From a virus: a stretch of DNA of 24,006 nucleotides. The stretch is taken from positions 1 through 24,006 of the IMG/VR virus record IMGVR_UViG_3300025669_000192; one strand, 5' to 3'. The notes under the pieces were generated by a model. The model searched no databases. It was not told the origin of the DNA and saw nothing but the letters and a program-made list of their open reading frames with translations. Every line of letters starts with the position of its first letter. Position 1 is the first letter of the stretch. The translations under genes were made by a program, and so were the position numbers. Shown here piece after piece: positions 6,118-13,716 of the stretch.

Positions 6118-6386
6118 TGGCCAAGAGCCACTATGCCAAGCTGGCCAAGAGCCCAAGATTACAGAGGACGCTTGCCGCGTTGGCCCCAGGGCATCATCTG
6201 AGCAGCTTCCAGCTTGCCACGTTGACTAGGAGCGTGGCGATTCATTCCAACGTCCACGAGTTGCGCCAGAATGGTTTTGACATAGCCTGCAAGCGTGGCA
6301 AGCGCAAGGACACGGGCGAGTATGTGTTTGAGTATTGGCTCGTTGGCGACTCGGTACGCCGCGCGAAGCTGGCCTGTGCGACTTGA
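6117..6386 (+). CDS. Small helix-turn-helix protein (89 aa)
   Basis: I start it at the ATG that overlaps the previous stop (TGATGG), with AAGGGGG 6 to 12 bases upstream. The segment LSSFQLATLTRSVAIHSNVHELRQNGFDI is a good helix-turn-helix, and KRGKRKDTGEYVFEYWL then gives the wing of a winged-helix fold. Phage proteins of this kind are common and probably bind DNA. A role in phage gene control or replication is an inference. Its stop codon lies inside the TTGACA of the promoter that drives the RNA candidate just downstream. Confidence 0.7.
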   Translation: MAKSHYAKLAKSPRLQRTLAALAPGHHLSSFQLATLTRSVAIHSNVHELRQNGFDIACKRGKRKDTGEYVFEYWLVGDSVRRAKLACAT

Positions 6387-6411
6387 CAAGCTTCAAAGGA
6401 TAGGGTATAAT
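6383..6411 (+). promoter_or_regulatory. Perfect sigma-70 consensus promoter P2
   Basis: TTGACA at 6383-6388 and TATAAT at 6406-6411 are separated by exactly 17 bp. The next bases, ATAGGCA, are the same as after promoter P1 at 988-993. Transcription should begin about 6 to 8 bases after the -10, that is at or near the A of the ATG at 6418. That leaves no room for a ribosome binding site, so the transcript is either a non-coding RNA or a leaderless message. Confidence 0.9.
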
Positions 6412-6417
6412 ATAGGC

Positions 6418-6533
6418 ATGAATAGATCAACTAACATCCTACCCGATTGCCCCCATTCCCCCAGAAGCGGTATGCCGCAAGGCGCCGGAGGCCTCTTAGT
6501 TGAGCCTATTCACTTCTGGGGGGATTTTCTTTT
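6418..6533 (+). ncRNA. Candidate small structured phage RNA of about 115 nt
   Basis: A perfect promoter ends just before this stretch and a terminator-like stem with a uridine-rich tail ends it, so a discrete short transcript is expected. Besides the 13-bp end stem, TCAACTAA at 6427-6434 is the exact complement of TTAGTTGA at 6496-6503 inside the loop of that stem, which makes a pseudoknot or a competing structure. Smaller hairpins (CGG/CCG at 6468-6477, AGGC/GCCT at 6480-6494) lie in the loop. A frame from ATG 6418 (MNRSTNILPDCPH) stays open beyond the stem, but it has no ribosome binding site and looks like shadow coding. It could instead be an attenuated leader for the HNH gene. No known RNA family is recognised. 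Confidence 0.6.
6455..6533 (+). terminator. Long-stem intrinsic terminator
   Basis: Positions 6455-6467 pair with 6513-6525 over 13 bp with a single G-U pair; the core is CCCCCAGAAG with CTTCTGGGGG. TTTCTTTT follows at 6526-6533. The loop is long (45 bases) and itself folds, unlike a compact terminator. It sits between a promoter and the HNH gene, whose start at 6579 is downstream, so it may stop or reduce transcription into that gene. Confidence 0.7.
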
Positions 6534-6578
6534 GTGCCCGCTTGAATGGACGAGCGCAAGCAGACACGGGAGATTAGC

Positions 6579-7151
6579 ATGAGTGTTTCACAAGGTCTAA
6601 GGTTTGCCGTTCTCGACCGCGATGGCTTTCGCTGCAAATACTGTGGCAAAACGGCCGGAGAATCAAAGCTAGAGGTTGACCACGTTATCCCAGTGACGTT
6701 GGGCGGCGACGACACGATGGACAACCTGGCTACCTCCTGCAAAAAATGCAATCGTGGCAAGGCCGGGCTTGCGCTAGGTGATGGGGAAACCGATAGTGAA
6801 CTTGCCATGAGACTAAAGGCGCTGGATCGCAGGGTGGATATACTGACCGGTATAGCCGAATTGCACACGGAAGTAATCAGGCTAAGAAATAAGGAGATGT
6901 GGCAAATCGTTGAGGAGTGGCACCACGCAAGAAACGAAACGCAACATAATGACAAAGGAGAACACACCGCAACCTTTGCTTTGACATCCTGCATAAAGGG
7001 GGTGCTGGCAAGGGTGGGATTTGAAGAAACGCTTGATTGCGTCCACATTGCCCTGTCGGGCCACACTAGAACAACATCTGAAACCAACGCTATCAAATAC
7101 CTTTATGGCGTAGTCCGAAACCGCCAGACGTTGCTGGAGGCGACGACATGA
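6579..7151 (+). CDS. HNH endonuclease (190 aa)
   Basis: The first 65 residues are a clear HNH nuclease: CKYC (C19, C22), LEVDHVIPVTLGG (D34, H35), MDNL (N49) and CKKCNRGKAG (C54, C57). The cysteines hold a structural zinc and D34-H35 with N49 form the metal-dependent DNA-cutting site. The rest (about 120 residues) is helical and unrecognised, possibly for DNA specificity. I prefer ATG 6579, which has GGGAG 6 bases upstream, over ATG 6546, which has none. It lies in the replication region, not next to the terminase, so a homing or accessory nuclease is as likely as a packaging partner. The stop overlaps the next start (ATGA). Confidence 0.85.
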   Translation: MSVSQGLRFAVLDRDGFRCKYCGKTAGESKLEVDHVIPVTLGGDDTMDNLATSCKKCNRGKAGLALGDGETDSELAMRLKALDRRVDILTGIAELHTEVIRLRNKEMWQIVEEWHHARNETQHNDKGEHTATFALTSCIKGVLARVGFEETLDCVHIALSGHTRTTSETNAIKYLYGVVRNRQTLLEATT

Positions 7152-8146
7152 GATACGTCACAACGCAGACTGGATTCTATACTGACCCGGACCTGGCCGA
7201 GTGGAGCCGTGACGCCATGTGGCTCTATAGATACTTGTATGAGAATGACCACGCCCACGGCATATCTGGCATTGGCCGGATAGCCAAGCATGTCATTCTG
7301 GCAGAGTCGCGCATGACCACGAAGCAGATCGCCAAGGCAAAAGAGGTTATTGGAGATAGGGTGCGGTGGTATCAAGATGGTTCATATTGGGTGGTTGGCA
7401 GAATCAAGCATACATGCCTTACTAACGACGGTAGGCCATCCCCAAAACACGTCAAGGCGGTATCAAACATACTCACGACCGCACAACCACAGCTTACAAA
7501 AGACGTTATAACAAAATACCCCTTTGACATTATCATGCAAGACCATCCCGAATACGATACCCCATTGATACCCTATCGATACCCACTAAAGGGGCAACCA
7601 AGTTTGCCTACCGAAGCCGTAGCCGTAACCGAAGCCGTAACCGAAGCCGAAGCCGAGAACAGCGCTGCGGGCGCGCGCAAGCAAGGAGCGTGCCAAGATG
7701 AAGGCAACGGAAAGGAAAACCCGCCAGCGGGCGCTAATGAGTTTGACCCGTCAGACGACGAACCCGTCACAAACCCGCCAAACGCTTCACCCTGGAAGGA
7801 CGACGCAGAACGCCAGGCCATTGTAGCGAAGGCGTTTGAGGCGCTTGGTTCAATGGTGAATGCCGCCGTCCTGAACAACTGGCGCGAGGGCCACGAGGCC
7901 GAATGGATCAGGGCCGCACTGTTGACCGCAGCCGAAGCCAACGCCAGGTCGCCTAAGTACGTTACGGCCATTCTGCAAAGATGGGCCGCAGATGGATACC
8001 CGCACCCGACAGAACTATCCGGCGAGGCGGCAAAGGCAAGATCAAAGGAATTGAACGCAAAGTGTGACGCCATGCTTGCTGAGGAAGCCGAAAAGGAAAA
8101 AGCCGCAAGGGCTGAAAGGAGACGCCATGACACGCGACCAGTTTGA
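7148..8146 (+). CDS. DnaD-like replication initiator or helicase loader
   Basis: The N-terminal part (about residues 1-110) resembles the winged-helix domain of phage replisome organisers, with YTDPDLAEWSRDAMWLYRYL followed by a turn and a basic stretch. A low-complexity linker follows, coded partly by 12-bp direct repeats (near 7617-7655, giving TEAVTEAEAE). The C-terminal part, about residues 215-295, ends in SPKYVTAILQRWAADGYPHP (Y271, I275, W279), the Y-x3-IL-x2-W signature of DnaD/DnaB_2 domains, which contact DNA and the helicase-loading machinery. Length (332 aa) is typical. It is coupled to the HNH gene and followed by zinc-finger, XRE and SSB genes, as expected for a replication module. 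Confidence 0.78.
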   Translation: MRYVTTQTGFYTDPDLAEWSRDAMWLYRYLYENDHAHGISGIGRIAKHVILAESRMTTKQIAKAKEVIGDRVRWYQDGSYWVVGRIKHTCLTNDGRPSPKHVKAVSNILTTAQPQLTKDVITKYPFDIIMQDHPEYDTPLIPYRYPLKGQPSLPTEAVAVTEAVTEAEAENSAAGARKQGACQDEGNGKENPPAGANEFDPSDDEPVTNPPNASPWKDDAERQAIVAKAFEALGSMVNAAVLNNWREGHEAEWIRAALLTAAEANARSPKYVTAILQRWAADGYPHPTELSGEAAKARSKELNAKCDAMLAEEAEKEKAARAERRRHDTRPV

Positions 8147-12506: not shown

Positions 12507-13121
12507 ATGAGCAATAACCCCACGAGCATAGACGACTTGAAGGACGACCCGGTAAACCCAAGGCAGATTGCCTTCGGCGCACTGGACGGGCTGACTAATA
12601 GCCTATCCGAGTTTGGCGACCTGAGCGGCATAGTCTGGTCTGCTGATAGGGGGCATCTGATAGCGGGCCACCAGAGACTTTCGGCGCTCAAGGCCAAGCA
12701 TGGTGACGCGCTCAAGATCGAGGGCGGGGCAATCATTACGCCAGATGGTGAGGCGTTCCCGATCCGCGTTGTGTCAGGCTGGTCCGAAGCAAAGGAGAAG
12801 GCGGCAAACCTGTCAGCCAATAACCCAGCCATAAGCGGCACGTTTACGCCCGGCGTTCTGCCAGTTCTTGCCGATATCAAGGCCGAATTGCCAGAGTTGA
12901 TTGCCCCGCTGATGCTAGATATTGTGGTGTCAGACTTTGAGCCAGGCGCGATCCAAAAGGTAGGAGGAGTAAGTCAGCCACTCCCAAAATTGGCATTTGT
13001 ACTGATTGGATTACCCGTTGAGCGGTTTGGCGAGCTTGCCGGGGTTATGGAAAAGTATTCTGGCGACGACCACGCTGTCGTTGAAACCAGCCTCAGTGGA
13101 GGTGAAAGGGATGGCAATTGA
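12507..13121 (+). CDS. ParB/sulfiredoxin-fold protein (204 aa)
   Basis: Residues 15-70 contain DPVNPRQIAFGALDGLTNSL followed by GDLSGIVW and GHLIAGHQRLSALK, the pattern of ParB-like domains: an N-P-R box, an E-F-G helix and the GHQR catalytic or nucleotide-binding motif. In phages these proteins are often partners of DNA methyltransferases or act as nicking, NTP-binding enzymes. The rest, including NLSANNPAISGTF, fits the usual continuation, and the C-terminus is a short unknown segment. ATG 12507 has AAAAGGAG 5 bases upstream and lies just after promoter P3. The end overlaps the next gene by 11 bases, which shows a shared operon. Confidence 0.82.
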   Translation: MSNNPTSIDDLKDDPVNPRQIAFGALDGLTNSLSEFGDLSGIVWSADRGHLIAGHQRLSALKAKHGDALKIEGGAIITPDGEAFPIRVVSGWSEAKEKAANLSANNPAISGTFTPGVLPVLADIKAELPELIAPLMLDIVVSDFEPGAIQKVGGVSQPLPKLAFVLIGLPVERFGELAGVMEKYSGDDHAVVETSLSGGERDGN

Positions 13122-13716
13122 TAATTCCTCATTAACCACGAAGCTGGCAATCCGGAAGTATATGTTAGACAAGTGGAGTCAAGAGCCTATACGTGTTCTT
13201 GACTGCTGCGCTGGGAAGCGGGAGATATGGACCGCCCTGCAAAAAGATTATGATGTCAAGGAGTATCTAGCCGCAGATGTTAAGGCCACTCGCGGCAACC
13301 TTCGCGTTGACAGCCGTCGGCTGGTTGCTGACAAGGACGTTTGCTCTCGGTTTGACGTGATAGACGTTGACACGTATGGATCTCCGTGGACTCATTGGGA
13401 AAGCATCATCAAAAACTGCGGGCAAGACGTTACTGTGTTTCTGACCATGGGGCGCAGTGGGGGCCAGAAGGCAGTAGACGGAGCTGCCCTGGAAATGCTA
13501 GGGCTGAATGGCCTTGATGTACCAAATGGCATTAGGTGGAGGTTGGCTGATCTGTGCGTAAGTTATTGTTTGACAAAGTGTTACGATTACGGTATAATAC
13601 TAAAAGAAGCCGTAGAGACAAGATCACCGGGTAGCGGTGGCGCAAACTACTACGGCATACGCTTGAGGAGGCGGAAAAATGGGAGTAATCTACCAACCAA
13701 AGGGAGCGGCCCTTGA
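13111..13716 (+). CDS. SAM-dependent methyltransferase-like protein (201 aa)
   Basis: IRVLDCCAGKREIW (residues 27-40) resembles the first SAM-binding motif of class I methyltransferases, with D31 at the end of the first strand. AADVKATR follows as the second strand. FDVIDVDTYGSPW (81-93) takes the place of the catalytic motif; it is not the NPPY or DPPY of ordinary DNA amino-methyltransferases but recalls the D-x-D-P-Y-G-S-P box of tRNA guanine-N2 enzymes. The C-terminus is basic. The start at 13111 has GGAGG 8 bases before it. The target (DNA, RNA or small molecule) cannot be told. A perfect promoter lies inside this gene near its 3' end. Confidence 0.62.
   Translation: MAIDNSSLTTKLAIRKYMLDKWSQEPIRVLDCCAGKREIWTALQKDYDVKEYLAADVKATRGNLRVDSRRLVADKDVCSRFDVIDVDTYGSPWTHWESIIKNCGQDVTVFLTMGRSGGQKAVDGAALEMLGLNGLDVPNGIRWRLADLCVSYCLTKCYDYGIILKEAVETRSPGSGGANYYGIRLRRRKNGSNLPTKGSGP
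13570..13598 (+). promoter_or_regulatory. Perfect sigma-70 promoter P4 inside a coding gene
   Basis: TTGACA at 13570-13575 and TATAAT at 13593-13598 are 17 bp apart, both perfect. It lies in the last fifth of the methyltransferase-like gene and about 80 bases before the radical-SAM start at 13679. Transcription from it would supply the radical-SAM gene and probably the terminase and head genes as well. Confidence 0.85.

Follow-up and report, generated by a model that had tools for sequence, protein, structure and literature searches.

The closest described systems are the C4 antisense RNAs of phages P1 and P7 and the CI RNA of satellite phage P4. In P4, the CI RNA pairs with seqA and seqC and thereby causes premature termination (PMC4825925), and A. 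baumannii has been reported to contain many C4-like RNAs, with loop a' determining their specificity (PMC5320573). RNase P processing and action in trans count among the criteria for antisense regulators of the C4 clan. In the annotation of phage P1, the targets a1 and b1 are located between the c4 promoter and the C4 RNA, while a2/b2 lie over the start of icd. The Rfam family c4-a1b1 (RF03163) gives a match in P1 above its cut-off and a match in P4 just below it; a C4 match is present in P4 as well. A further family of the same clan, c4-2 RNA (RF02944, clan CL00128), was defined by bioinformatics in Rfam, and no functional study of it was found in the open literature searched. Both the c4-2 family and the existence of upstream targets for C4 are already known.

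The locus analyzed here lies in a virus record of 24,006 bases (IMGVR_UViG_3300025669_000192), the whole of which is called the window below. It shares with C4 of P1/P7 (RF01695, RF03163) the order of promoter, upstream target, antisense RNA and phage genes, as well as the pairing of loop and junction sequences with the target. Whereas the P1 target is found 31 nt past the -10 box, with a second target on the icd start, the target in the window begins 7 nt past the -10 box, at the predicted transcription start. The genes behind the RNA also differ: icd/ant in P1, HNH and replication-like genes in the window. The P4 CI RNA (seqA/seqB/seqC) resembles the window element in that its seqA target is located in the leader, 5' of the RNA, and in regulating its own operon, as the window element is predicted to do. 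However, neither the isrK-like leader of P4 nor a counterpart of its downstream seqC was found in the window.

Identification of a c4-2 RNA upstream of an HNH gene

The element is located between a gene for a small winged-helix-type protein, which ends at 6386, and an HNH endonuclease gene. Its features are as follows.

6383..6411, plus strand: consensus sigma-70 promoter TTGACA-17-TATAAT (sequence match), with a predicted transcription start near A6418
6418..6582, plus strand: possible leaderless leader ORF of 54 codons crossing the c4-2 RNA (putative translation); its TGA overlaps the HNH start (ATGA)
6419..6425, plus strand: b1 target TGAATAG at the transcript 5' end, complementary to b' (6506-6512)
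6427..6434, plus strand: a1 target TCAACTAA, complementary to loop a' (6496-6503)
6455..6528, plus strand: c4-2 antisense RNA core (cmscan RF02944; fold; covariation)
6496..6503, plus strand: a' antisense sequence UUAGUUGA, in the P3 loop (complement; RF02944 alignment; fold)
6506..6512, plus strand: b' antisense sequence CUAUUCA, 3' side of P3 and unpaired junction (complement; RF02944 alignment; fold)
6526..6533, plus strand: U-rich tail of an intrinsic terminator, TTTCTTTT (sequence; fold)
6579..7151 (alternative start 6546), plus strand: HNH endonuclease gene, 3' of the RNA (Pfam HNH, 7.1e-14; PHROG 14314, 1.2e-25)
7148..8146, plus strand: replication-initiation-like protein, next gene after HNH (PHROG 6251, 8.4e-5; Pfam DnaB_2, 1.9e-4, just under the cut-off)

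An earlier note, made from the sequence of this region, had described a perfect promoter, and this was borne out: TTGACA (6383-6388) and TATAAT (6406-6411), separated by a spacer of 17 nt, match the consensus at 12 of 12 positions. The window contains three perfect promoters with a spacing of 16-18, where a shuffled window would be expected to contain 0.007; the promoter is thus unlikely to be due to chance. All three are TTGACA-17-TATAAT on the plus strand (965-993, 6383-6411 and 13570-13598). The first two have TATAATATAGGCA in common; the third sits within an ORF (13006-13716), upstream of a radical-SAM gene. Elsewhere in the window, the gene at 1400-2524 contains about 13 tandem copies of a 54-bp unit (1807-2502), with an encoded repeat of the type QAGGSCYAYDNATINASA.

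A sensitive Rfam scan of the region identified c4-2 RNA (RF02944) over the full model (1-79) with 43.5 bits and E-values of 1.8e-8 and 1.3e-8 in two scans. The score is only 2.5 bits above the gathering score of 41 bits. c4-2 is the best match at this position within the C4 antisense clan, to which RF01695 belongs, in an output that omits weaker overlapping matches of a clan. The earlier note had not recognized a known family and had suggested an Rfam search; a family does exist. A default Rfam scan of the whole window reported nothing, and a genome family search also loses 6455-6528. As this above-gathering match is lost by both, c4-2 RNAs with a short P1 are probably under-annotated.

When the 74-nt element was folded alone, a free energy of -37.3 kcal/mol was obtained (z -4.15, with none of 200 shuffles as good), and the minimum-energy fold is the same junction as in the c4-2 family alignment. 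P1 (6455-6467/6513-6525) has 13 pairs, one of them G-U, and doubles as the stem of the terminator, in agreement with the 13-bp stem and terminator noted before. P2 (6468-6487) is closed by a GCAA tetraloop, and P3 (6489-6492/6504-6507, AGGC/GCCU) carries a loop of 11 nt. The three-helix junction, the GNRA-type P2 tetraloop, the use of the P3 loop and junction as antisense segments and the double function of P1 are all common to c4-2 RNAs. The window element departs from the c4-2 consensus by a continuous P1, by GCAA in place of GAAA and by the lack of a detectable second target downstream. The internal loop of P1 (UAU/UAA in the consensus) is deleted in the RF02944 alignment of the window element and is also absent from several other short-P1 relatives; this form occurs in loci L093, L094, L099, L100, L104 and L105. 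Since the whole-model score still passes the curated cut-off, we take the missing loop as variation within the family, but if it is counted as a defining feature the window element should better be called c4-2-like. With this reservation about naming, we assign the element in 6383-6533 to c4-2 RNA with high confidence.

Conservation of the three-helix junction

Close comparison was limited by the relatives available. No DNA relatives were found in phage or plasmid collections, and among viral contigs the sole relative of the region is a near-identical one (99.9% over 9.7 kb), which therefore provides neither covariation nor a close comparative series. Relatives of the RNA were gathered instead by pattern search and family search, and ten short-P1 elements were aligned, with the structure of the window as reference. 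A locus that fits the pattern but by eye lacks an upstream target (L101) was left out. On the ten elements, 86.5% of cells are paired, as opposed to 37-49% after a shift of the structure by 1-3 columns, a comparison tilted somewhat towards the unshifted structure because this was derived from the window. Changes on both sides were found in 15 of 23 pairs among these related elements, and the covariation score was 0.61 versus 0.19 (0 of 500 shuffles). P1 and P2 carry the covariation; P3 shows no two-sided changes in this set, and 72.5% of its cells pair. The three-helix junction is kept in related elements through compensatory changes. The stems thus covary in homologues, and the earlier note is supported in placing a discrete, structured RNA, equipped with its own promoter and terminator, ahead of the HNH gene.

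Two other ways of finding relatives were tried. The contigs returned by a scan for the terminator stem only had no c4-2 match, and a scan for the core hairpin returned 27 contigs, of which only one (L026) was recognized as a real c4-2.

Loop-target complementarity in the window

The earlier note had reported an exact 8-nt complement between 6427-6434 and 6496-6503. This complement is exact (TCAACTAA/TTAGTTGA), and it extends by a second block of 7 nt that had been missed. Together, TGAATAG-A-TCAACTAA (6419-6434) and TTAGTTGA-GC-CTATTCA (6496-6512) form 15 Watson-Crick pairs in two blocks of 7 and 8 nt, separated by a 1x2 internal loop. Such a 7+8-bp arrangement appeared in none of 1000 shuffles of the 118-nt RNA, and the upstream target score (S=15, 8+7) has p=0.0002 against shuffled leaders. 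No second target (b2/a2) was found downstream in the window (p=0.54), and no further a'/b' target anywhere in the window scored better than shuffles. At 6542-6548, the sequence TGAATGG offers possible pairing to b' alone.

As had been proposed, the terminator helix is crossed by the long helix. A rival reading is a cis-acting attenuator, in which a pseudoknot or antiterminator helix, formed by b1/a1 with a'/b' of its own molecule, would set read-through into HNH with no trans-acting RNA. In its favour, a single transcript carries both arms, and the topology allows the two helices to coexist. We nevertheless consider it unlikely. The 13-bp P1 stem is strong and belongs to the minimum-energy fold of the whole transcript. 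Furthermore, a second copy of the target is present downstream in phage P1 (a2/b2), and many c4-2 loci have one ahead of the next start codon, as would suit an RNA acting in trans. Judging from the relatives, the upstream arm is an antisense target and not only the arm of a cis pseudoknot. Of the two readings offered before, non-coding RNA or antitermination switch, the discrete RNA is upheld; an attenuation-type switch may form part of the mechanism that we prefer. The long complement itself corresponds to the b1/a1 target that the clan uses in trans, which is annotated in P1 and modelled in Rfam as c4-a1b1.

Loops and targets in other c4-2 loci

Targets in the c4-2 loci gathered were scored by the match of a' plus b', energies of whole-P3 duplexes having been dropped as too noisy. 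For the window and some other loci, where the automatic parse was wrong, the limits of P3 were drawn manually, which means that the scores of these rows followed inspection. In most loci, loop and junction match an upstream target in the order b then a (p<=0.03, dinucleotide shuffles), and in many a second match is found just 5' of the next start codon. Exceptions to the upstream match include a tandem second copy and low-scoring matches (L070, L087, L089, L073, L095, L097). Loops vary from locus to locus and the targets vary along with them, so that the two change in concert.

The position of the target relative to the promoter was also similar, the promoters being sequence matches. In loci from Bacteroidota, b1 begins 2-5 nt past a TAnnTTTG-type -7 element, and in loci of the sigma-70 type (other genomes and viral contigs) 3-9 nt past the best-scoring -10. 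This places the antisense target at the very start of the predicted transcript, a design common to c4-2 loci, the window included, as read from sequence.

In a Desulfobacteraceae locus (L061), the gene behind c4-2 encodes an AntA antirepressor, a link between c4-2 and the type of gene that C4 accompanies in P1. Several Bacteroidota genomes (L064-L092) have 3-6 copies of c4-2, many followed by small genes starting with MSTxTLSKE; the one gene of this type tested had no Pfam family match. By eye, a short hairpin with a T-run lies between b1/a1 and the c4-2 core in L104 (GCCA...TGGCATTTTTT), L093 and L094. It may correspond to the isrK-like leader terminator of P4, and is not present in the window. 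L105 has a T-run at the same place with no clear hairpin.

A possible leader ORF through the RNA

The earlier note had taken the ATG at 6418 as the only one, which proved incorrect, as a second ATG is present in the same frame at 6472. The frame 6418-6582 could be an ordinary leaderless small gene, the RNA features being incidental: it is open over 54 codons and its end forms an ATGA with the HNH start. Searches of protein families and homologues returned no homologue of it, and the frames of relatives are in different registers and encode unrelated peptides, whereas the RNA helices covary. As no homologue was found, the frame shows no protein-type conservation, which would have argued against a non-coding RNA. 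A small gene of this kind is very improbable, even though, as in many relatives, no stop interrupts the frame along the RNA. A type III toxin-antitoxin RNA antitoxin would match the order of promoter, structured RNA, terminator and gene, but 6383-6560 contains no direct repeats and the gene downstream is an HNH endonuclease, not a ToxN/TenpN-type endoribonuclease, which leaves this explanation a negligible probability.

Most c4-2 loci have an ATG within or close to the target, and its frame has no stop across the RNA core. When only the ATG nearest the target is considered, 27 of 32 loci fit, whereas the number of open frames would predict 15; no proper probability can be attached to these figures because the loci are related. 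The excess was seen both in Bacteroidota (19 of 22, expected 10) and in the others (8 of 10, expected 5). The statistic is a test on the core only, a control with frames +1/+2 having been set aside as ATGA-biased. Three registers are in use in Bacteroidota, so that the peptide is not conserved. In L067 the leader frame overlaps the next start as in the window, in L069, L076, L083 and L094 it continues in frame into the next gene, and in phage P1 a frame crosses C4 and ends just before icd. These data are suggestive only.

When transcription and translation are coupled, a ribosome crossing the RNA could open the terminator. The leader ORF would begin in or just behind the antisense target and run through the terminator into or up to the next gene. 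We tentatively raise the possibility, to which we give less than even weight, that c4-2 RNAs are ribosome-dependent attenuators, in which termination is enforced because the RNA blocks the start of this leader ORF. C4 of phage P1, which also has an ORF of this kind, may work likewise. No description of a ribosome-dependent attenuator was found for the C4 clan in the accessible literature.

Proposed mechanism and significance

The element is most likely an antisense regulator or immunity RNA of the P1/P4 type whose target is the 5' end of its own transcript and which would limit expression of the HNH and replication-like genes. From the perfect promoter, a short RNA would be made, ending where its P1 stem forms the terminator. 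In the c4-2 core, a' in the P3 loop and b' in the junction are exposed and are together complementary over 15 bases to b1/a1, the beginning of this transcript; the RNA, once accumulated, would bind b1/a1 on new transcripts in trans. By analogy with P4 CI acting via seqA and P1 C4 acting on its operon, this binding would make the 5' end of the transcript unusable, with no read-through into the HNH and replication-like genes. More speculatively, a ribosome that initiates at A6418 would open the terminator as it crosses the RNA, and this initiation would be blocked by the antisense RNA. We regard antisense control of its own transcript by the c4-2 RNA as probable. Its likely role is in immunity or in the self-limitation of an early operon.

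Relative to the literature consulted (the original c4-2 description, NAR 2017, aside), the new points are this member of c4-2, the co-change of c4-2 loops and targets with the target at the transcription start, and the leader-ORF hypothesis. The co-change of loop and target gives c4-2 a concrete, testable function, antisense control of the P1/P4 type at the transcription start. Regulation of this type is thereby extended to further phages and mobile elements, many found in Bacteroidota, and the leader ORF, if real, would explain how the terminator is overcome.
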